A stretch of DNA of 64,000 nt from Paragyromitra xinjiangensis (taxonomy: Eukaryota > Ascomycota > Pezizomycetes > Pezizales > Discinaceae). Numbering within the stretch: the first letter of the stretch is position 1; every line of letters begins with the position of its first letter. The stretch spans positions 992,001-1,056,000 of the forward strand of contig JBCAMK010000008.1 of NCBI GenBank assembly GCA_038503065.1. The letters run 5' to 3'. Shown piece after piece: positions 2,792-64,000 of this stretch. The notes beneath the pieces were generated by a model that saw nothing but the letters and a program-made list of their open reading frames with translations, did not search any database and was not told the DNA's origin. A program made the translations under genes and the position numbers.

Positions 2792-3760
2792 CTAGACGAT
2801 TTCTTTTATTGCGACCTCTTCTTCATCCATGTGATCACTACCGATTGACGCGGTGTCCGGATAATCCTCCGTAAAATCTGTGATGTGATGAGACAAAACC
2901 TCGCTGCTCTCACGATTAGGGTTGGCCCCTGGGGTAGATCTAATTGATAAGGCACCAGGTGATGGTGGTGACGGTGAAGGTGGCGGTGAATCATGGGGGT
3001 ATATTATGATATTATCGGGTTGATGAGGGGTGTCCCGAGGAGATTCGGGATCACGATCAAGCCGATGGAGAGTTCTATTAGTCGTGGCAACATTAATGGG
3101 TCGTGGAGAATGTATATGGTGGATTGGTAAGGGAGACTGTAGGGCCGGCTGAGGAACCGAGGGAGAGGATGGTTGGTGGGCAGGGTTCTGGACACTCCCA
3201 AGAATTAGAGAACTAAACTTTATATTCGCAATAATATTTTTTTAAAAAATCTAGAGCTCCAGAGAATATTTGCATACCGGTTGATTATCCGTCTGAATAC
3301 CAAACACAGCTGCTTCATAACTTGGAGGTTTTTCCTCCTCTACCTCGATAGCGATCTTCCGACGTGACCCATTTCCGAAATCTCGACTATTCCTGCTTCT
3401 TTTCCTCATCCACCAAAGGGTCGCAAATACAACCGCAATAACAACTATTCCAGCAGAAACAGTTATCCCCACCAACGCTTGAGCACTGATAGAGCTTTTT
3501 CGGGTGGTTGTGGACGACGACGATAGTAAAACGGGTGTAGCCGTCGGCTGGTATTCAAGGTCGGTACTATCGGGACGATTCGGATCATCTGTGGGAAGTG
3601 GACCCCATCCGCTTGGTTCATTTACCAGAGTAGTTGTCTGGACAGAGAAAAAGCCAGTCTCGGGGTCGGAGCGGTAGAAAGTTTGGACCGGAGCAGCTAC
3701 CGAGCCGAAGTCATAGCCAGTCGTAGTAGGCACGGTCGTAGGGACTCGAAAGGCTGGCAT
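2792..3760 (-). CDS. single-pass membrane protein with Pro/Ser/Thr-rich flanks and PPSY motif (two exons)
   Basis: Model: complement(2792..3187, 3278..3760), 292 residues. The 90-bp intron has donor GTATGC and acceptor CAG, both in phase 0, and splicing gives one open frame to TAG at 2792. Unspliced, the frame stops eight codons past the donor. Residues 1-94 are Thr/Ser/Pro-rich with no clear signal peptide. Residues about 95-117 form one hydrophobic helix (ALVGITVSAGIVVIAVVF) followed by WWMRKRSR, the positive-inside side, so the N-terminus should be outside. The cytoplasmic tail has PPSYEAA at 145-151, a PPxY-type ligand for WW domains such as those of Rsp5-family ubiquitin ligases. It ends in a Pro-rich and then acidic tail. 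The layout resembles fungal Mid2/WSC-like or receptor-like single-pass proteins, but no Cys-rich ectodomain is present. Function not assigned. Confidence 0.8.
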
Positions 3761-6700
3761 CTTCGACTGACTGCTTCCGTCGCAGGATCCTTAAAGGGGA
3801 TAGAAGAGAGGCGGGAGAAGAAGTATGAGGTGGAAGGGACACTCAACTTCCATAAGTAGTTTTGACGGGCTCACTCATTCTTCAGCCCCAGCCCCGCTGG
3901 CTAATCCATTGGCGAAAAATTGCCAGATTGGACAGCAACGTGCAAATCATATCACACAAACCCGAAGAATGCAGGCGGGATGGTGTAACATTTTTTTTTC
4001 CTTTGATCTACGAGGATTATTGATCCAGCCAGCCGTACGACTTATGACACGAGTTCAGCACAGGTTGTTGTTGTTGTTCCTGAACCAACAATGAGACGGG
4101 AGCTAGCGGAATCTATGTTTGATGGACAAGGGATTCCGGGATTCAAAACTGTTTGAGATACTCGAACTCATACCGAAGCGAGGGCTTTCGCCGAAAAGTG
4201 ATTGTGAGACCATGTTGGGAACTGCATGTAGGTATCTGCTGAATAGGACAGGCATGGAGGGAATCTGTTGTGAGAAACAAGCTGGTAAAAGTAAATACCC
4301 AGATAGGTCGAGCACTGTTTACGTAAATCAAGGAGTAGATCGAGAGAAAAAGCCATTGCGCTTGGGCACGCCCGTCCGCGTTTTTCGACGCAAAGTACAA
4401 CATACTACCGTCAAGGTCTAACAATGTCTAGTAAATAAATAAAGTTCGTATTTGGCGTCTAAAAAAAGGAGCATTTTGTTTACCAGGCAATTATTACCTT
4501 TGCCACATGTGTAACACTATGGCTGTGTCACTCAGGCTATCATGACCAAATAAGGTGCTCCACACACCAGGTACAGTATGTGACTGTGGTTTTTAGACAC
4601 CACTGATCTTCGCCATGCGACGATTTAAGTTCTCCTGGTCATCTCTCCTTCTTTCCCGGACAAATGATGATGTTGGATTGTTTCTATTCAATGATTACCC
4701 TAACCCCAGCCTTTTTGCGCAAGAACGCGCTGGAACAAAAGCGGCCTGCGCCGCCATGGCTGATGGAATATGACATTGCTCCTTCCAAGCCTCCAGATTA
4801 GGCGTGAATGTTTCCTTTTAGAATTCTCGGTTCTCTAGGCCACCCGTCTTTGGGGGCTTTAGGCTGAGACATCTATTGAACCCCTAGGACAAGACGTGAC
4901 GAATTACCTCAGTGGGCAGTATATCTCCACCATAGAACCATACTCAGGTGTGCTTTTTCGGAGGAAATGCATCACCAGCTCCGAACTCTGAGACTGTTCT
5001 TGGGATTTTGGGCATACAAAGTTATATAACTTCCAACTTCAGAGATTTAGCAAATACTAGAATTTAAATCCGCGCTGATGGGATGGCGGTATTTAGTTAG
5101 GCCATAGAGCACACACGCTATTATTGGGATTAGTGACGGATGCGGCACCGAATACCCAAGACTTTGACCACGTTGCGTGGCGGGGTCCACTTAGCAGACC
5201 GGAAGTCGAAAGAGACACAGTAATGCTGACTGCGAGAAATATGTACTCTAAAGGCCTTAAGTTGGTTTAGGTGTCGGTGAAGATCGGGCTCGGTGCCGGT
5301 ATCCATAAGAACGCATGCCAGCTGGTATTCGGGCCAATTTCTACACACTTAATTACTATAGGTTCATCGCACATTACCGAGCCGTCGGGATCTAGGAGGG
5401 AGTAAACAAAGGGTTTCCGACAGATAAATGATAGAGGATATCAATACCAAAACATATGTGGAGGCAAAAAGTACGACGAAATATTTTCAGAGCCTGTTTC
5501 AGCATTGTGGAGAAAATTGACGGAGTGGAAACCCGAAAGCTGGGGAAACCATGATATCTCGAGATTTTCTTTTGGGGTCTAGATTCTGCCACACTTAGGC
5601 TACTTAGGAAGGTGCAAAAAGGGAAGGGGCATACTATAGGCGCTAGAACCAAGTGTAAGCGTTTTCGGTAGAATTCCCGGCTAGCCTTTTTCTCTGATCG
5701 CTGTCTACCTAGCTTAAGGTTTTTGAGCATACTAAGACGGCTAATGGCAGAAATACTAGGCTTGGTGTGTGAATGGGATATGTTAACTAGCGGGCCAATT
5801 CAATTTGGGAAATGGTTGAAACTGGGGGAGCTTACTACTATCTCTGGATGCATGAAGTTGATTTAAGCCTTCCCGATAATTCGGAAGCCGTCATTCCCGA
5901 GAAATCTCTAGCGGGCATCCAGAATCGGGTTTGGGGCGTTGCCACAGAAACGTGGTATGTTTCAGGCAGTCGTCTCAAATATTTAGGCTTGGAGACGGGT
6001 TAAAGAAACACCAGCTATCAGGAATCCGTAGGAGGAGAGCTCACCTTTGTTGATATTGTCCATCTCCAATGAATGCATGGCTTCGCCGCACAAGGATATT
6101 GTATCAATACGTGCTCGTTAGTAATTGAGCAAGCTGGGAAGAATACCAAAAGCCTAAGAACCATCATCCTTGCAAGTGTCTGTCATAAGACGGAGCAACG
6201 CCGTCCAAACCTTCTGACTCGTCCGGGCAAGGCTGCTGAATCTTCAGCCAACCCTTGCTTATTGAGGGGTATGGACAGAACGTATTCAAAGGAAGCCTTT
6301 GAAGCTTGTCGAAGCCTACAAAAGTTTGTCGAATACTTCCCTATTTCCGCCCCATCGAACACGCCACCGTTAGCCTGAGCCAACTCGTAAATAAGCAACG
6401 CGTATCCACAACCCCCCTCTAAAAGACACTAATACATACATGCAGTCGGCACATAGAGACAACGTCGTACCTTTGCCTACCATAGTATTCTATTCATCGT
6501 ATGGTCAACATCCCGTGTTGTTCCGAGCCGTAATCACGATACCATCACCTCTACTTCAGTCAAGATCTAGCGTCTAGGGCATATATACTTCCGTCAGCTT
6601 TCCATGCAAAGTCGACTTGATACCCGAATCCTATCAGCATATGGGGAAGACTTGACGAAATACTAAGAAAGCTTGCTAGACTATTCCGACGAGCTTGCAG

Positions 6701-16799: not shown

Positions 16800-18013
16800 C
16801 TATCGTTGCTTCTGGGCTTGTGCAGCCGCCCTCGATGCCCTCCTGGCCTTTCCCTTCTTGGTGTATGAATCTACGAAGAAGCTGACGAAGAGATACGTCA
16901 AGGGGGTGAGATAGAAGCAGTTCGCGAGAACAGCCCAGACTTCGCCAGGACCTGAGAGACAGGCAACCATATCTGCCTCGGCTGGGTGCTGTCCAATCAT
17001 GCTACCATTGGTCATGATATCATTGACGGAGGTGGAAGAGGACGGTGAAGAAACGAGAGTTGAAGTAGTGGTTGGTGTGAAGTAGATGAAAAGGTGGATG
17101 GCTGCGCCAGACCCGCCGACAATGAACTGGGTGATTTGGAGCGAGGTAAGGGAGCGCTTCAGGGCATTGGGGACACGGATGTGCAGGGTGGAGAGGGTGT
17201 AGTAGGTGTACTATTTAATTTGTTAGTAGAACTACAGGTATGGCGAGGAGGATTGGGAAAATTACCATAAGGGTGTGGATGAGAGAGTTGAAGACGCAGA
17301 AGAGCCAGATGGGAGGAGACATAAAACTGCGATCTGATTAGTAACTAATAGAAAAAGCGTCTTGATTGATGAAGAACATACCGAATACCTGCCCACATAC
17401 AAATCATAGCCCCGGCATGGTGGTAGGTTTGCAAAAGGCTGCTCTTCTTGCCCTTCAGGATGATGATAGCTGTGTCAACAACCTCATAGAACTTGCTCAA
17501 GTAGAACAGCCATCCGTAGAAAGCTAATCCTTCTTCCCACATCCCAACAGGTCCTTGGCCCAACAGGTCCTCAGGCAATTGAGTCAAATCCGCTCCAAAC
17601 CTAGTCTCCGGGCGAATCTTGCACAGAGATTCTACCACACCTGAAACGCCCCTCGTAGTGACGATTGAGCGGTTCACAGCCATGCACATCCCAACGAAAG
17701 TCCACAAGGAGTAGACAGCCAGGAAGAGGTTATGCGCAATCACAAACAATTTGAAACCCCTAGTCTTTGTAATTCGATACGGGGTGCCATTGGAACGAGT
17801 GTTGAAGGTGTGTACAATTGTTGCATAGAGGGCTGCAATAGTGAGCGGGACACGAGGGTCGAGAAATGCATGGTAAAGTGAATTGGGAATCGAGAATGGG
17901 TACGCTCCGTCCACTGGTGGAATTGCGGGGGATGAGGTTGATGGCGACGGCAAGGCACTGATCCATGAATTGGGCGGTAGGGCGAACCTGAGAGATGAGA
18001 TTAATGAGGCCAT
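16800..18013 (-). CDS. ELO/GNS1-SUR4 family fatty acid elongase (three exons)
   Basis: Model: complement(16800..17210, 17266..17326, 17382..18013), 367 residues, with two 55-bp introns (donors GTATGT and GTAATT, acceptors CAG and TAG). ELO proteins are ER multi-pass condensing enzymes (3-ketoacyl-CoA synthases) that extend acyl chains by two carbons from malonyl-CoA. Diagnostic motifs are LSKFYEVVDTAIIIL (residues about 172-186, the KxxExxDT signature) and LLQTYHHAGAMICMWAGIR (about 193-211). The His box reads QxxHH, not HxxHH, a variant described for elongases acting on polyunsaturated or very long chains. Exon 2 continues with the helix FMSPPIWLFCVFNSLIHTLM. The C-terminus ends in a Lys/Arg/Ala-rich tail (TKKGKARRASRAAAQAQKQR), suitable for ER retention (inference). 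Length is typical. Family call is firm; substrate is not known. Confidence 0.92.
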
Positions 18014-20650
18014 TTTTAGTTGATGCTGCTCCTGTATCTTCCGTTAATTGAAGTGGAGTGATAAAGATGGTGTGGTTTTATTCTCTTTCGAATGAAAGAG
18101 GATGGGAAGGAGTGAAATAAGAAGAGAAATATGCTGAGAGGAGAGAATAGAAGGGTCCTCCAGCTGCAAGCCGGCTGTAATGGTGGCTCGCAGACGAGAC
18201 CCCAACCATTATCGGTTTAGAGTTCTGTTCTGTTGGGATCTGAAAAAAGCGATAGTGGTGGGGTGAACGTTGTAATTGGGGGGTTATGCGGATAGCCATT
18301 TCAACTGGATAAATTATTACTGTTGCTGTCCTTCAACAATGCAGGGGCACACCCAAGACAGCATAAAAGTATTGTTCTCCCCTGTTTGCTGTTCATCCTC
18401 CAGCTCTTTGGCTTGCTGGAAGGGCTCAATTGGGCACTCAAGGAGACCATTCCCCGAGACAGGACGGGCCAGTGTCGGCCTTCTTACACGATTCAGATTT
18501 GTCTGCACTTATTCGTTGTTATGGTGGGCTCAACAGAAAAAAACAGTTCCAAGGGCGGAGATCCCTCGGAAACAAAAAACTTCATCTGATGTCCAGGAAC
18601 CCTTATAGTTTTCACAAGTACGCCCGAGGGTTGTCCCTGAATCTTGATGAATTTTAGAATCTGACCTCTAAAAGAAGTTAACCGATGCGGCGGAAACTGC
18701 CGGAAACCAATTTCTAAAATCAAGACACCATGATATTTTCATTTTTCTGAGTTGGGTCCGGAAAAACGTTACTCCGTTAAAAAATCGGCAAAGCCGCGAT
18801 GCAACGATTGGCCCATCAAATTGTTGGGGACAGGGGCGGTTCAACCATTTGGTTGTGCTTTTTCATGCGTCCCTCCACCCGAGCCGAACCGGGATTAGGA
18901 TCTAGGGTAACTTTGGTGTCTCTGGAGATAACCGAGCAGCCCCTCCCCCACCTTCCGAACAGGCGTTTGATTTAATTTGGTTCCTTTTCTCAAGCTTCTA
19001 TGATCCGCAGATTATTCCGGTTGGAGCGACATCAATGCCTCGGGATCTTGATAGCTCGTACCTTTTTGTGGAGACGCCATCGGAATCGAAACATGGCTGG
19101 ACGTGATGGATAGATTACGCAGCACTTCACCGTTACACAGCACCGAACATCCAACATCTGTAAGATGTATTGTAATACCTAGATAGGCTTCCTCGCCCAC
19201 GGAAGTTGGGATAGGCTTCCACAGAAGATTAGCATCCCGAAATGTAGCCTATTTAATCGACCTAGGATTTCGTTTAAGAGTTCTGGATCCCCGAGACTCT
19301 ATCATACCTAACCCTCCCTACAACGAGAGACCACGTCGATGAGAAGCCTCTTGGAGATACCACTACTCATGCTGCCGTTTTGAAGTCGCGCTTCCTAGAT
19401 AGGAAACTTCCTATTCCCCAACTAAAGATTTGGCGAGGCTGTCTGAATCTAAGGGTTTTACATACAAAATGCCAGAAAACAGTGGTATCTTGTTCAGGAT
19501 CAATATCCTGAAGGCACTATGGAGGAAAGAGAGGTGTCAAAAGGGCACCAAGAAGATGCCACAGAGGTGCAAGGGACTGCCGAGACTGCCTTCAACCAAT
19601 AGAAATGGCTTTCCCACCAGATCTTGCCAGCTTAGGCAACGCGACTTCAAACCGGCTGCATGAGTACATCTGGCTGTTTGAATGATCCGCGGACACTCCA
19701 GCCCCCCGCTCTAGCAGCCAATGGAGGGGATTGTGTTATCGTTATCGTTATCCAGACTCGAGCTTTACGCCATGGCCTCCCCCATCATCCATGCTAACAA
19801 TCCACGAGTGAAAATCCGTGATTCTTGGCGCAGCCTCTCCAAATCCCCTATAAACACTATCAATGGCGACCAGAAACTATGATAAGACTAAAACGATCTG
19901 ACCTCCAATGTGCTCAACATCCACTTTTGCCCCCGCAAGAACCCTCCGGTTTAGAGCTTCAACCCCCCACTCTTGATCGGCTGCCGTCCTTTTTATTTCT
20001 TATCTACCTGATGCATATTTACCTTTTATTCTATCGGGATTGTATGATTACGTTGGGCTTTGCAGGGAGCATTTTTCATGTGAAGTCCTCGGGATATTCG
20101 CGGGATTAGATAGCTATCCTTCCTACTTGACATTCAGTTTTTGAGGGTTTCTCTTCAGCAAACATTAATATTCCTACAGAATTAACCCCAATCAGAAGCA
20201 AAACGACCCCCATTCATCCAAGAGCCGAGAGAAAGCCTAGTAAGAAACAAGATAAGTAATATGATATCATTCCCAACAATACTCCCCGAACACTATAGTT
20301 TGAAATAACAAGAATATACTCGGGAGTTCTCTATCTATATGCATCTGTTGAGTTCAAGATATCTTGTATTACTAGTTAGCTGACCCTTCAGTAACGTTAA
20401 GGAGGAGGAATGTAGATGCAGCCCGGTATATCACCAATCCACAGCACTTGGCTAAGCCGATCCCATTTTCCCTCGGAAATCATGATCTAGGAGACTTACA
20501 ATACTATACAGACTATCCCCAGCTCGCTTCATCGCAAATAGTTGTACCATATCCCTTAAGACCCCCAGACCCGAACCCAATCCCATTCATACCAGCATAG
20601 TATTCCTCCCCTTCCATTGCTTGAGAGGGATATAACGGAGACTATCCGTC
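18014..20650. other. intergenic stretch of about 2.6 kb
   Basis: The left part is the elongase promoter and 5' leader. The small open frames at 18276-18723 and 19430-20109 sit on both strands at once and have no recognisable protein character. No RNA gene or repeat of note was seen. Confidence 0.5.
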
Positions 20651-33032: not shown

Positions 33033-35220
33033 TCACCAACCCGCCTCGAGATCTGCCCACCCATCGGCTACCGCCCTGAATACTCTAACACCACCCTCTA
33101 CCATCTCCCCTGCGCCTAACGTGTACTCACCTCTTGTAACAACTTTCACCCCATTGGAATTCTGCTGCAAAACTCCGACTTTAATGTCACCCCCAGGCTC
33201 ATAATGAACTGTCTCAATGACAGCGGTGTGATCCTTGCATCCTACCGTACCCTCTGGCGCTCCTGCGCGCATATCAGAGATCACGCGCCCAGTAGAATCT
33301 CTCCTGATCCACCGGGCAGAACGGAATTGTAGAATGTCACCTGGTTTCAGCGTGAGCCCAGAAAGCACGGAGGGTTTATGTTGCAGGGAAGGATAATGAG
33401 AGAAGATGCAGAGACCAAAACTCGTCCCTTGGGCAGTCATTATCTTTTTCGACCCAATGGCTTCGTCTTCCGATTTAAGGCTATTGAAACAGTCTGCCGC
33501 GAGAGTCCAGCATTCACCATTTCCCACTTGCTGCCCTATCCTAGCTCTAACCCAGCCCACGATTCGGTCGCCCCATTCCTCGGACCGAGGAGGAGAAGAA
33601 GAAGGGGGCGGAAAATGCTTTTGTTCTGCCTTAGCGGTAACGCTAGGTGCAGAAGCATCCCAGGTTATTTTGATTTTGGTGGTCGAGAGATTGATGGTCC
33701 ATCGTATTGCTAATATTAAGGTATGCTTGGTTCTGCCAGACGCAGACCGCTCCCATGAACTTGTGAACATGTGTATCTTCTCCTCAATGCCGTCAACGGG
33801 GGGCGGAAGCTTGAGTGGACTTTTCGAGAACCAAGCTGTCGAGATGCAAAGGTCGAGGTCTGATGGGAGCTCTGGAAAAATTTGAAGCGGTAGGCCATTA
33901 TTCTGGAGTATAGTGGGGGTTTTTGATGGGGTTGGTCGTGTCCCACGCGGGATGATGGGGGGAGATGTTAGGTTGACATGTGGTGGCGTATTGGTTGCTT
34001 GCTTTTTGGGTGGGGTGGGAATCGTCGGTTTCTTTTTCGGAGGAGGAGGTGGGGGCTTCTTTTTCCCTTGTCCGGGTTTCCCCGAGATGGTCACGGATGG
34101 GGCGGGTGGGACGGGCAGGCCCGATGGGTGGGAAGGTAGATCAGGTGATAGATTCTTGGTTGGTAAGGCTGGCGGCAAGCTAACTCTTAGTGTTGTCATC
34201 CCTCCGCTGCCGCCTTCGTTTCTTGAGGCGTAGAGATCTCCATAACCTTGAATCTTCTTATCCAATCCCATCTCTTGGGCTTTTTTGTAACTAGAGGCCA
34301 CTTGATCCCCGTGCCTTTGTTGGAAGTTGCGCCCTGTCTTCAAAGCAGCACTTGCATCGGAAAACGAGACAGAAGATGGATTTTTGTAAAATGAATTTGC
34401 TGTAGCTAGTGCTGCTTTCTTCTCTGCGAATGTGGTCCCTGTGCTGGGAGTGCCTCGGGGATCTGATACATGATCACCAAGATTATTCATGCTCGCAGAC
34501 GGCCTGGGGCCGCTCAGAAGAGGTGGTTTTGCTGTTGGGGCTGCAGCTGGTGTCATGTTGAAGCCAGGCACTGATATTCCAGCCTTACCTAGCCTTTCAA
34601 TTGTAGTCACGTTGATACCTCCGGTCTTCATATCCACCACGTCTCTCGGGGTTGGTAATGCTGACTCTCCGCGCGGCGCTAACCGCGGTGGGACAGGCGG
34701 AGGGCGGTTTCCGCTCGTCTCATCACCGAAACCTATGGATGTATTCGGCCGCTTCGGAGGTAACGGAAGGGTGTCGGTACTAAGACCTGTCGTGTTCGCG
34801 CGGTAGGGTTTCGGTGAAGAATATTTTTTGGCACTTTCGTCCTCGTATCCCCTATCTTCACCGCTTGCCTGAGAGACAAATCCATCGCTCGAAGCCCCTG
34901 CGTTTGGGATTCTCTTTGGTGGAGGCCCGAAACTTGCTGGATCACGCAGTGCAGAGACGGGGCGTACGTTAACCGGGCCGTCGTCAGTTCCTGATTCACC
35001 TTTGCCCATCCATCCCGCCTGTTTAATTAGCCTAGGTTCCACGAGGTTCAAAAAGAAAGGGGGGGCGGATTGAACGTACAACTTGATCAAAGCCCTTGAA
35101 GTTTTTCTTCAACCGCGATGTCGTCGAGGAGGATCTCGAGTCTGAAGCTCCAGCGTAGGACGGCTCAGAAGATGAGCCGGGATGCCAACCGGATTTCGAT
35201 ACTGACTTGAGGCGATCCAT
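33033..35220 (-). CDS. AIM3/BBC1-like actin-patch protein (two exons)
   Basis: Model: complement(33033..35018, 35080..35220), 708 residues. The 61-bp phase-0 intron has donor GTACGT and acceptor CAG. Exon 1 gives MDRLKSVSKSGWHPG...FKGFDQV, joined to AGWMGKG in exon 2. Residues about 70-430 are disordered and Pro-rich, with SH3-ligand-like stretches (GNRPPPVPPR; KKKPPPPPPKKK at about 363-377). Residues about 430-708 form a C-terminal domain with GECWTLA (Cys550), LKPGDILQF (about 604-612), DHTAVIETV (His644) and VEGGVRVFRAV. This matches the C-terminal domain shared by yeast Bbc1 and Aim3, which has a cysteine-protease-like fold. In yeast those proteins act at cortical actin patches during endocytosis. 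I see no SH3 domain, so the layout is closer to Aim3. Cys and His are kept; whether it is catalytic is unknown. Confidence 0.8.
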
Positions 35221-54978: not shown

Positions 54979-57900
54979 TTACAAAAACCTTTGGCTCTTT
55001 CCCTGATCCTCAACGATCGTTCCACTCCTACTAGTCCTTCCGCTGCTACTTCCGCTCTCCAATCCCTCCTCTAAATCTGGCTGCACGCGATTCAAGAACT
55101 TCGCGCTACCAAGACCTTTCCAACGTTTGATACCCTTCCAGCTCTCAACAAGAGCGAGATACGTGGCCGAGCATCCAATGACGACTCCCCACTCCCAGGT
55201 GATGGCCATGTGCTTGAACACGACGGTGTTGAAAACGGGGATGTAGATGACCGGGAACGTGATGATGAAACCAGCAAACACAGCCCAGAAGAGGAATCGG
55301 TTATACCACAATGTGTGGAAGATGCTGAATGGTCCCCGGTGGCGGGCAGGGTCTAAATTGAAGAGGGAGCGACTGAAATGCTTCACCTCCCAAGCCGTTA
55401 ATAGGAGCAAGAACGAGAGAACGGCGAACACCGTAGCGCGAGCCTTGAAGACGTCCGTGCAAGTATCGTTGAATCCGTTGTTGCAGTCATTGCCGAGGTT
55501 GCCGTTTCCATATCCGTAAATAACGATGACGAAGGAGATGAGACAGAGCGAGCCCATGAAGACTCCGTAGATCATTTTATCAATGATAACTTCCCAAGTG
55601 AAAACACCAGTCCTTAGGTCATGTGGTGGGCGGGTCATAATATCGGGTTGTGCTTCCTCAAGCCCCAGGCCGAGAGCGAGGAAAGAACTAGTGATCATAT
55701 TGACCCAGAGGATCTCGAGAGGGCTTAGGGGGAAGACAGAGACACCCTCGCTATCGGCAAAGGCGAGACCAATGAGGAGGAGGATAACTTGCGAAATATT
55801 TGAAATAAGAAGATGCATAATGAACTATGATTCGAATATTAGTTAAGAAATAGAAGGGAAAGGGAAATAAGGTGTACCTTCTGAATATTGTCGAAAAGCC
55901 TTCTACCTTCCTCAACAGCGCGAACAATACTGGCAAAATTGTCGTCGGTCAACACAAGATCGCTAGCATCCTTCGCTACATCACTGCCACTAAGTCCCAT
56001 AGCGATACCAACATCCGCTCTCTTCAGTGCTGGGGAATCGTTGACACCATCACCAGTCATGACACAGAAGGCACCACGTCTGTGCAGCGCTTCTACCATT
56101 CTAACTTTGGTTGAAGGTGCGCAACGGGCGATAACCAATGGCAAAGCCTCCAGCGAGTCAATTTCGTCGTTAGTCATAGAGTCAAACTGTGACGCCGTCA
56201 TAACGATGGTATGAGCTTGCGCGGAAGGAATAGCGGGAGACAAGATTCCAACTTCGTGAGCGATAGCAGTGGCAGTTCTGATATGATCTCCGGTCAACAT
56301 GTGAACCTTGACTCCAGCGATCTTGCACTTGCGGACGGCATCAAATGTCTCCACACGGGGTGGATCGTAAAGCCCAACAAGACCCACGAAGTTCATTCCG
56401 GTTTCCACGGCAGCGCGATCATTGATGTTACTCTTTTCGCCTGAAGGGAGGGTCTTGTGTGCTGCGCAAAGAACGCGGAGTCCTTCACCGGCGAGACGCT
56501 CAACCATGTTCATAATTTCAGCCTTTTCGGAGTCCGGAAGGTTTAAGGTAGGAATAACGACTTCACCAGCGCCCTTCATGAATGCTTCGGTAGTGTTACT
56601 GCGATTATTTCTGTAGATGACGCTCATACGCTTGACGGTGGAATCGAAGGGGTGTTCAGCAAGCTGTTCCCAGTTGCCACTAGCAAGGAGCGAAGGTTTT
56701 CCGTGACTGAAGCGCATGGCAAGGACTTGTAGCGAGATCTCGGTGGGCTCGCCATCGGCGGACCAATTACCGACAGGCTTCTCGGAAGAAATCGACGTAT
56801 CGTCATTTTGACGGACAACCGAAAGGTTACAAAGTGCAATGGCGTCGAGGAACCTCTCCAGGGCAGGCACTTTTGAAACTAGCGCGCCATCAACAATGGC
56901 ATCTCCAACAGTGACGTTACCGTTGGTAGGATCAAATGGAGAGGAAGCATCATTGATAGTCAACATGCCACCGAGTCCAGGAATATAGGCTTTGCGGGCG
57001 ATCATCTTTCCTTGGGTAAGGGTTCCTGTCTTGTCCGAGCAAATGTTTGTGACACCACCAACAGCTTCAAGAGCTTGCATCTTGCGGACGATAACGTGAC
57101 CCTTTGCCATCGTCTTTGTTCCAACTGCCATGGTGATTGTAAGGACAGCGATGAGCGATTCCGGGATGACGGCGACGGCGACGCAGATACCGTATATAAG
57201 AACCTCATCACTGATTTTCCACTGTTGGTGTACCGAGTCAATTTCCTGTATCAATTGTACGCAATATAAATTGAAGACTTACTTTATTCGCGGAAAAGAC
57301 GATAATGGCCAATAAAATAGCAAAACCAAAGAGTACAAGGGCAAATTTGCTCAATTTGACCTGAAGTGGCGTTCCAACTAGACCAAGGATGTTCTTCGCA
57401 GAGCGCTTGAATTTCCCCCAGGCTCTTCCGAAAAATCCTTTGCCGGCATCTTCGTCATGCTTTCCTCTAAGTAACTCGGCGATTTTTCCAACCTCCGAAT
57501 TCATACCAGTAGCAACAGCGATACCAACCGCGCGTCCTTTCGAGACGGTGGAGGATGCGTATGCCATATTTGTGCGATCACCCAACGGAAAATCCGCATG
57601 AGGAAGGGTCATCAGTGGGGTTTTAGCAACCGGCAAGCTCTCACCGGTAAGCAAAGCCTCATTGGTCTCAAAATTCATGCCCTCAAATAGTCTAAGATCG
57701 GCAGGTACGACATCGCCAACAACGACACGGACAATATCACCCGGAACAATTTCCTCAGCCTTAATCTTTTCAACACGGCCGTTATTGCGGATAACGCTTG
57801 CGATGGGAGCTGAGAGGGATTGGAGAGATTGCATGGTCTTTTCCGCACGCCAGTCCTGAACGAAACCAATGACAATGTTTAGGAGGATAACCGCAGTGAT

Positions 57901-59275
57901 GACGGAACCCTCGATGAAGTCAAGCATCCCATAGGATGCAGCCATTGCGATCAACAGAACCTACATTTTGGTGGGCGAACTGTTAGCAAAGATGTTGTCC
58001 TGATTGCTGGATTTGCCTGGTTTTTGAGGACGTGATTTGGACGAGATGGGCTTGGACGAAGAGAGCACACTCTCGACGAACAAGCCCATCTACATGAAAT
58101 TCAAAAACGAAAAAGAACGAGCAGGTGACTTGAGTTTGGATTTTCGATCCTCTCCCTAATGATGCTAGAAATAAAAGATAATAGATAATACACTGCTCGA
58201 CGTGGGGAAAGTTCCTCGTGTCGCTGGTGGTTCTCCCTTGTACCTTGTCCACAGGAGCAAAGAGGGAAAAAATAGACACAGACATGCCGGCTCGGGGGTA
58301 GACCTCCGCGGCTAAAACAAAAAGTAATACAAAAACGCTTTGCTCCTTTCGCTATTCCACAAGAAAGCTGATGACTTTCGTCCTTTTGACAAATTTGAAA
58401 AAGCTGCTTGATTGTGGAGGGATAGAACGAGGCAAAGGATTTGGGAATTCGGATTAGTCTCTTCTCCGAGGGGATGGGTGGACACAAGATGAGGAAAACA
58501 GAACAGTCACCATAGCGGTGAGATCTGCTACAAGTGATGGGACAGGAACTCATCCGCAAGTGGCAGTAGCGGAGAGGTCTAGGGTAAACGTGCAAACAAG
58601 CAGGTCTTTAAAAAAAAGAGTTTATTTAAGCGAAAACGGTCTGGGTTTACGTACCAACGTCAAGCTATTTGAGACTTGTCTAAGTAGCACGCTCCACCAG
58701 GTAACACCCTTGTCACCCGTGAGCTTGTTCAATCCATCTCTTGTAAGCCTTTCCTTCGCTTCCTGGGTTGTCAACCCTGCCTTCAAGTTAACCTTTAGAA
58801 GCGAAGAAACTGCTTCTGGAGTTGCTGCGTGGGGAGCTGCTGCATCGAAAGAGCCGACGGTAGAATTGGCAGTGATAGTATTGACAGCAGTTGTAGAGCT
58901 CTGACCGCTGGGCGTGCCCTCGTATACTGGGCTAGATGCAACCGTGTTGGGAAAAGACTTCCCGGAGAAGCCATAGTCGTAAACTCGGCTCTCCGGGTGG
59001 CCGCTATCAGCGGTGGGGGTGATTTGATAATCCTCATCACTCCGGATAGTCACGTTGGAGGCATTTGAGGAGAGTTTGTTGTTCGTGCCAGAACGAGAGT
59101 CTGGCTGCTTTGAAGGGACGCCTCCTGCCGAGTTACCGACAGGAGGCGAAAGTATAGGTGGGGGGTCATCATTACAGCCTTCCTCTGTGATAGAAGAATG
59201 ATTGACGCCAGAGCTATGCTGGAGGGAGGACGGAACGGCGGAGAGGGAGGCGGAAAGGGAAGTGGGGTTGACCAT
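54979..59275 (-). CDS. ENA1: ENA-type P-type Na+/K+-exporting ATPase (P-IID), four exons
   Basis: Model: complement(54979..55824, 55878..57221, 57283..57960, 58655..59275), 1162 residues. ENA pumps sit in the plasma membrane and expel Na+ or K+ using ATP, giving salt and alkaline-pH tolerance. Residues 1-150 are a Ser/Thr-rich extension. TTQEAKERLTRDGLNKL begins the cation-ATPase N-terminal domain, and NSLTL-VLLIAMAASYG spans intron 1. LLTGES (about 310-315) is the actuator motif. VIPESLIAVLTI is the ion-binding TM4. SDKTGTLTQG contains the phosphorylated Asp496. FMKGAGE and TGDGVNDSPALKRADVG (about 822-838) form the nucleotide/hinge region. Exon 4 holds the last helices and WVNMITSSFLALGLGLE. 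The IPES motif and overall match favour ENA over SERCA or PMR1. Intron 1 is 694 bp, far longer than any other intron in this window. Intron 2 (61 bp) could alternatively end 24 bases earlier, in frame. Confidence 0.95.
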
Positions 59276-62891: not shown

Positions 62892-64000
62892 ATGGTCTTC
62901 CCCAAAGCTTACGCCCGCTGGGTAACAAATGTTTCTTTTCTCCTCTCTCTTATTCTAACAGGTACGTAGTCCACATTCTCATGTCGCTTGGGATTGCCAT
63001 AAGTTAACGAAATATAAATAGTCTTTCTGCTCTCAGGTACAACTTCTATAACCCCCGGCGTACGAACCCTTTACGTTGCGAAACTTGAACTGAACTCCAC
63101 CAGGGTCCAAACATTTACGACTTTGCCTGTGACTTCTGTTGGTCAATCAACACCAATATCGACGTCTGTACACAAAATAACTACAGCCACGGTGACATTG
63201 AGATCTACCATTGGTATATCTACTACGAAGCCTCTAACCTCAAGCAAAAGTGGTAGCTCAAAAACATCCAGTCATGCAGCCTCCACAACTTCAAAACCAC
63301 CTACGAAGAAGCGGGACGCACATGGTGATGCGGAACACTGCATCCCGGGGGCTTGTAAGGGGAGGATTGCCTTGGAAACCAAAAAGCCTTCGGGCAAACG
63401 GGACGTGCATGATGGAGGCAGGCACAGTATTCATAAGGCTTATAGGGAGGGAATCGCTTTGGAAACCGGATTGCTTGCAAAGAAACGGGATGTGCATGAC
63501 GAGGATAGGCATACCAACTCTGGGGCGTATAAGATGAGAATTATTTTAGATAAACGGCCTATGGAGAAAAGAGATGCGCACGACGAAGATAAACATAGCA
63601 TCATCGGGACCTATAAGGTGAGGATTGCTTCAGCGGTCAGACCGCCTCCAGGGAAACGAGATGTGCATGGCGAGGGTAAGCACGAAATCTACGGAGATTA
63701 CAAGATGAGAACCGCCTTGGAAACCGGATTACCTATGGGGAAACGGAGTACACATGACGAAGACAAGCACAACGCCCCCAGAACTTATAAGGAGAGGACT
63801 GCATTGGAAACTAAGAAAGTACCGGCGAAGAACAATTTCCGGGATGGCAATGCAGTGTTACTGACTAGGCAACTTAAGCCGGGGGCTCGTGCACTTATTG
63901 ATTCTACCAATAGTGATGAGGGATCTGTCGTTCTAATCAGCTATTTTGGAATCTGTGCTAGTAATACCACAACTAGCTGGAGCTGCACCAAGAAGCGAAA
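62892..64000 (+). CDS. Fig1-like membrane protein with six Kex2-site repeats (partial, runs off right edge)
   Basis: Model: join(62892..62961, 63037..>64000), 344 residues seen. Exon 1 encodes MVFPKAYARWVTNVSFLLSL plus ILTG, a short membrane anchor or signal segment. A 75-bp intron (GTACGT...CTCAG) follows, and exon 2 is open to the window end. The junction reads LILTGTTSITPGVRTLYVAK, like the start of Fig1/SUR7-like tetraspan proteins, where TM1 is followed by a GxTSxxPGxxxLY segment. A Ser/Thr-rich linker (about 45-113) precedes six 28-29-residue repeats starting with KR at residues 115, 144, 173, 201, 230 and 259. Then comes VVLISYFGICASNTTTSWSC (C330 and C340), the G-x-C...W-x-C loop signature. 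TM2-4 must lie beyond the window. Fig1 proteins act in Ca2+ entry and cell fusion. A repeat block in this loop is not something I know from that family. The alternative is a secreted Kex2-processed peptide precursor. Confidence 0.75.
63309..63827 (+). repeat. six tandem coding repeats, period 87 bp (one of 84 bp)
   Basis: Units start at 63309, 63396, 63483, 63567, 63654 and 63741. Consensus of a unit: KRDVHDEDKH, five variable residues, YKxRxALET, then a variable end before the next KR. Unit 4 is preceded by an extra KR (63552-63557). A decayed seventh start (KN rather than KR) lies at 63828. DNA copies have diverged more than the protein pattern. Confidence 0.92.

Follow-up and report, generated by a model that had tools for sequence, protein, structure and literature searches.

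A Fig1-like gene at the right end of the window

The window, a stretch of 64,000 nucleotides (G000:C8:992001-1056000) from a genome of 48.2 Mb in 22 contigs, carries at its right end a predicted Fig1-like gene of two exons (Table 1), which is completed by contig sequence to the right of the window and encodes 566 amino acids. The second exon (L002:538-2168) runs to a TAA (L002:2166-2168) located 667 nt past the window end, and the in-window exon parts match the contig letter for letter. The preliminary description had joined a 70-nt exon to an exon open to the window end, and this arrangement was confirmed on the DNA, with a predicted 75-nt GT...AG intron between them. Between residues 1 and 190 the spliced product has no Met, so exon 1 is required if translation from an ATG is to include the entire array of repeats. 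The predicted junction, LILTG joined to TTSITPGVRTLYVAKLELN, has a similar counterpart, FILTGSTASGLRKFYLISLSYN, in the Fig1 paralogue at C1 of this genome, where it is read in a single open frame. Just 3' of the gene lie nested inverted repeats (L002:2503-3067) with arms of 73 nt (92%), 62 nt (82%) and 43 nt (77%), which adjoin or nest within each other in the manner of a foldback-type element. An ENA-type ATPase lies about 3.6 kb to the left of the Fig1-like gene, in head-to-head orientation; TIGR01523 was the best match for each of its three scanned exon frames, each under the whole-protein cut-off, as expected of pieces. The Rfam scan of the window, the plasmid collection and the PDB sequence search gave no match.

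Table 1. Coordinates, strand and basis of the features located in the window
Feature	Position in window	Strand	Basis or remark
Exon of an ELO-family fatty-acid elongase	17348-18043	-	
Protein with AIM3/BBC1 C-terminal cysteine-proteinase-fold domain	33036-35108	-	
Type IID (ENA-type) K+/Na+ efflux P-type ATPase, several exon frames	54982-59275	-	TIGR01523 best
Exon 1, Fig1-like gene	62892..62961 (70 nt)	+	Spliced reading; MVFPKAYARWVTNVSFLLSLILTG, last codon split; TM1 or signal anchor
Predicted intron	62962..63036 (75 nt)	+	GTACGT...CTCAG; single TTAAC branch-like site
Exon 2, in-window part	63037..64000, on to TAA	+	Continues in contig
Ser/Thr-rich linker, aa 46-113	63102..63305	+	S/T at 33 of 68 residues
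Unit 1, KR-DAH..., 29 aa	63309..63395	+	Unit comparison
Unit 2, KR-DVH..., 29 aa	63396..63482	+	Unit comparison
Unit 3, KR-DVH..., 28 aa	63483..63566	+	Internal KR before Pro
Unit 4, KR-DAH..., 29 aa	63567..63653	+	Unit comparison
Unit 5, KR-DVH..., 29 aa	63654..63740	+	Unit comparison
Unit 6, KR-STH..., 29 aa	63741..63827	+	No KR at far end; next KR is that of CTKKR
Start of Fig1 domain (aa 320-471; TM2-4 past window)	63924..64000	+	PF12351; SYFGIC(9)C loop motif and CTKKR

Fig1/FigA proteins (PF12351) are claudin-like low-affinity Ca2+ uptake proteins. On sequence grounds the window gene is a member of this family, which is characterised by a role in Ca2+ influx. The Fig1 profile matched amino acids 320-471 with 26.8 bits against a cut-off of 25.3 (the in-window part alone reached 11.4-11.6 bits), and gave E<=0.01 in all 13 aligned family members (P0002-P0014), while P0003 and P0004, out of four relatives scored against the cut-off, fell below it. 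The preliminary description had spoken of a Fig1/SUR7-like frame, of which the Fig1 half stood. SUR7/PalI (PF06687) membership was rejected, with no match of the window protein listed at E<=10 and only one of the 13 members at E<=0.01. In a profile search of the genome Fig1 matches fell at three gene places, the window gene and the distinct Fig1 genes at C9 and C1.

Extension of the contig to the right also brought in the membrane segments that the earlier reading implied, with hydropathy peaks at aa 366-394, 400-427 and 449-480 marking three clear TM segments (TM2-4). TM1 is marginal, a single 19-residue window exceeding 1.4 (1.46, at aa 14-32). The two Arthrobotrys oligospora homologues likewise have three predicted TM segments only, according to the available part of the source (PMC6418195). 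The YFGIC...WSC loop signature reported earlier is present in the spliced protein (C330, C340); the claudin motif reads S-Y-F-G-I-C(9)C, with Ser replacing the first Gly in 13 of 13 rows. For FigA, the available text places loop 1, between TM1 and TM2, outside the cell, with a G-phi-phi-G-x-C(n)C motif near the loop end (PMC5962676). Since the array is located between TM1 and the claudin-type motif, it is predicted by that topology to be luminal or extracellular, in keeping with the side assigned to it in the preliminary description. Hence the window protein resembles the Fig1/FigA family in its domain above the Pfam cut-off, TM2-4, YFGIC...C loop and predicted topology, but differs in its motif Ser and in a first outer loop of about 300 residues that holds the Ser/Thr linker, whose composition agrees with the earlier description, and the KR array.

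The six-unit KR array

The array consists of six units of 28-29 aa, starting at aa 115, 144, 173, 201, 230 and 259, each with KR-[DS]-[AVT]-H. These are the KR-initiated repeats of the preliminary description, and their periodicity is clear: identity at the repeat lag was 55 of 144 positions, against a mean of 12.6 and a maximum of 28 in shuffled sequences, none of 20,000 being as periodic. Units separated by KR, the hallmark of Kex2-processed repeat proteins (KEPs), are thus present. Only five of them, however, have a KR at both ends, which corrects the earlier account; the sixth continues into the Fig1 part. The majority unit sequence is KRDVHDEDKHSIPGAYKERIALETKKPMG, and most units contain a Tyr.

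The copies have diverged considerably. Protein identity between unit pairs was 38-55% and DNA identity 55-68%, and Tandem Repeats Finder detected no repeat in the DNA. Values of dN were 0.30-0.53, and dS was 1.10-2.40 in nine of the 15 pairs and not estimable in six; the high dS of the estimable pairs against the lower dN argues that the copies are old and under constraint at the protein level. Only K1, R2, H5 and H10 are invariant among unit columns, and at least four invariant columns are ordinary by chance (P 0.13). The joint invariance of H5 and H10 had P 0.003, or 2e-5 together with K1 and R2, for columns chosen post hoc. The array holds 13 His in 173 residues, against five in the 393 residues of the rest of the protein. 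In a low-confidence AlphaFold2 model of P0002, a near-identical protein, the array is unstructured (block pLDDT 26-41); pLDDT of the P0002 and P0007 models was 43.1 and 40.2, and TM1 is missing from both.

Relatives and probable origin of the array

Relatives were taken from two protein searches with length limits, which scored only the candidates with the most words in common, 7998 in one and 7992 in the other. They yielded 12 relatives (P0003-P0014) in addition to P0002, which has one residue different in the domain, starts later and carries an identical array (100% over aa 105-300). The only named relative is P0013, from Maublancomyces gigas, which belongs to Pezizales; the fungus with the array is therefore probably a member of that order as well, its 5.8S RNA having given no match. 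P0011 and P0012 start after the unit region, so that ten relatives cover it. The repeats recurred in none of these ten; what persists in nine of them is a single diverged unit-like segment, for example KRNVYGGDRRHIS, P0003 keeping KR alone. This bears out one part of what the preliminary description had named as refuting it, namely an absence of the repeats in orthologues. A search with the array region matched P0002 alone among 2280 candidates at E<=1, and searches of the own genome with the protein found the window locus, weakly the C9 Fig1 gene (E 9.6e-4) and a C20 stretch (E 0.95).

The unit that corresponds by position to the single segment of the relatives is unit 6 (alignment A1). In the comparison with P0006 two blocks were aligned, of which the first is weak (E 0.006); what lies unmatched between them in the window protein is the remaining linker, the first four units and part of unit 5. 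Comparison of unit and segment by hhalign gave a probability of 33% (E 4.7e-4); permutation p ranged from 0/500 to 0.056 across the six units, and the window protein scored no more than 2.8 bits against the profile of the relatives' segment. Unit and segment would thus be homologous, a relation supported by position and modestly by sequence. As none of the ten relatives has the array and nine have one segment, the array probably arose by an expansion specific to the window lineage, within a paralogue of the Fig1 family; this is the simplest account, loss elsewhere being possible. In the tree, one-segment P0004 groups with the window gene (99/99), a placement weakened by the midpoint root, by the length of the P0004 branch and by the window protein being most nearly identical to P0003 (69%). 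Origin of a tandem precursor would be traceable here through relatives that have one dibasic-headed segment.

The segment starts with KR or RR in nine of the ten covering relatives (P0008 has KH), which argues that the dibasic start is older than the array. About eight residues into the segment, right before His-Ile, a second dibasic (KR or RR before HI) occurs in five of the ten (P0004, P0006, P0007, P0008 and P0014) and is absent in the window units. Other loop residues are also kept, such as GNN and an Arg.

Possible processing of the array and its alternatives

The best explanation, held tentatively and at a little under even confidence, is that of a Fig1-family protein in which a KR-headed segment of the outer loop has expanded to six units from which Kex2 releases peptides. 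The protein would enter the ER via TM1, with the TM1-TM2 loop luminal as in the published Fig1 topology, and in the late Golgi Kex2 would cut behind all of the KR sites or only some of them. The trailing KR would then be removed by a carboxypeptidase of Kex1 type, and in units headed by DA a Ste13-type peptidase may take off that dipeptide as well. This would free as many as five related peptides, each about 25-27 aa long, with DAH, DVH, DVH, DAH and DVH as predicted heads if every KR is cut. The sixth unit (STH), after which no KR occurs until CTKKR, 84 residues on, would stay on the Fig1 part and form its new N-terminus, ahead of TM2-4, if CTKKR were left uncut. Candidate enzymes exist in the genome, where P_proprotein, of Kex2 type and hence consistent with the protease named in the preliminary description, has one match (C13, positions 1-56 of 86), Peptidase_S10, the Kex1-type candidate, is found at five places and DPPIV_N, the DPP candidate, at two. 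Presence of these families does not imply action on the array. Ste13 prefers XA or XP, as stated in the available portion of PMC6339444; two DA units might therefore be trimmed to an N-terminal His, and the DV and ST units probably not. An XA/XP signature after KR is not general in the array (DA in two of the six units, DV in three and ST in one).

A strong rival is that the Fig1-like protein remains uncut, the array being a disordered loop spacer rich in His, Asp, Glu and Lys in which KR was merely co-duplicated and is unprocessed, or processed incidentally. This is a realistic possibility, to which a minority of our confidence goes. It agrees with the lack of structure in the low-confidence model, with the sufficiency of one segment or none in the relatives and with a number of invariant columns within chance. 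Moreover, 12 of 13 rows preserve a dibasic of the cytosolic tail, so a kept dibasic alone is no proof of a Kex2 site. Against the spacer, KR is fixed in all six units despite high synonymous divergence, and a KR in a disordered loop exposed to the Golgi is a good Kex2 substrate. Cleavage might also fall mostly on the dibasic that opens the segment and on CTKKR beyond the Cys pair, shedding the claudin-type loop as one glycosylated piece (84 residues from unit 6), with the array only multiplying the first site. Both luminal dibasics are kept, the former in nine of ten relatives and the KR of the latter in 13 of 13 rows; an invariant N-T-T sequon lies between them in the 13 rows, and CTKKR is missing in the C9 and C1 Fig1 frames. 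However, CTKKR may be structural, the segment of P0008 opens with KH instead, and claudin-type loops normally work attached to the membrane; such shedding is judged quite unlikely.

The preliminary description had also likened the array to dikaritin RiPP precursors modified by UstYa/UstYb. KR-bounded repeats, mostly with Tyr, fit this idea, but the units are long (28-29 aa) and divergent, and UstYa matches occurred at two places, C12 and C13, with none on C8, the contig of the window, by which the likeness loses its main support. Among 23 largely non-overlapping ORFs of at least 150 aa in the window and 28.4 kb to its right, a survey that could miss genes of short exons, two belong to the Fig1-like gene and one (3254-3790) was left out; the 20 scanned contained no RiPP-modifying enzyme, such as the tyrosinase or methyltransferase that the preliminary description had suggested looking for. 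A dikaritin origin is thus highly improbable. Taken together, the observation underlying the earlier interpretation was confirmed and the interpretation itself partly supported.

Release by Kex2 would place the protein beside KEPs (alpha pheromones, Rep1, Ece1 and dikaritin precursors), with which it shares tandem units split by KR and, in the case of alpha-factor, the KR-DA start of two units. By definition KEPs are secreted and carry a signal peptide, whereas the window protein is polytopic. In the available text of Le Marquer et al., SignalP-positive proteins were retained and membrane proteins dropped by TMHMM (PMC6339444), a filter that the window protein, with three strong TM segments downstream, does not pass. 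Signal peptides were required in the 2020 KEP survey, as far as its accessible part describes (PMC7329392), and in that of Vogt et al. one of the methods presented excluded proteins lacking a secretion signal and the other took signal-peptide proteins shorter than 300 aa (PMC9769878), a study in which P. pastoris served for work on KEPs. Because these surveys, in the portions available, required a signal peptide or dropped TM proteins, Fig1-type repeat precursors could be missed; if cleaved, the window protein would be one of these, a multi-peptide Kex2 precursor built on a membrane protein with several TM segments. The available text of the lichen RiPP paper does not mention membrane or Fig1 terms (PMC12048977), and none of the open-licence papers that came up in searches for a Kex2-repeat Fig1 protein or a Kex2-derived ATCUN fungal peptide gave, by title or abstract beginning, an account of such a protein.

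A further feature of the predicted Kex2 products is that all six units would begin with X-X-His (DAH, DVH or STH). H2N-XXH is the ATCUN motif for Cu(II)/Ni(II), found as Asp-Ala-His in albumin and as DTH in hepcidin, according to the accessible part of PMC4850187, where the Cu(II) band of GGHG and DTH is put near 528-530 nm. The likeness lies in the predicted N-termini and presupposes cleavage, while albumin and hepcidin are unrelated to the window protein. Each unit contains in addition a second fixed His (H10). In the relatives the third residue after the dibasic is Tyr or Phe in eight of ten, His in one (P0005, NAH) and neither in P0003; XXH would therefore be largely a trait of the lineage. 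It is conceivable, if unlikely, that Kex2 frees from a polytopic claudin-like precursor, in the manner of peptide hormones, up to five DAH- or DVH-headed copper(II)-binding peptides and leaves the Fig1 part with an STH N-terminus at the surface, which would couple copper capture to a cation regulator of Fig1 type. On such a reading the putative cut site would predate the array and the XXH His would be nearly peculiar to the window lineage. The DAH, DVH and STH N-termini offer a direct and cheap test of copper binding.
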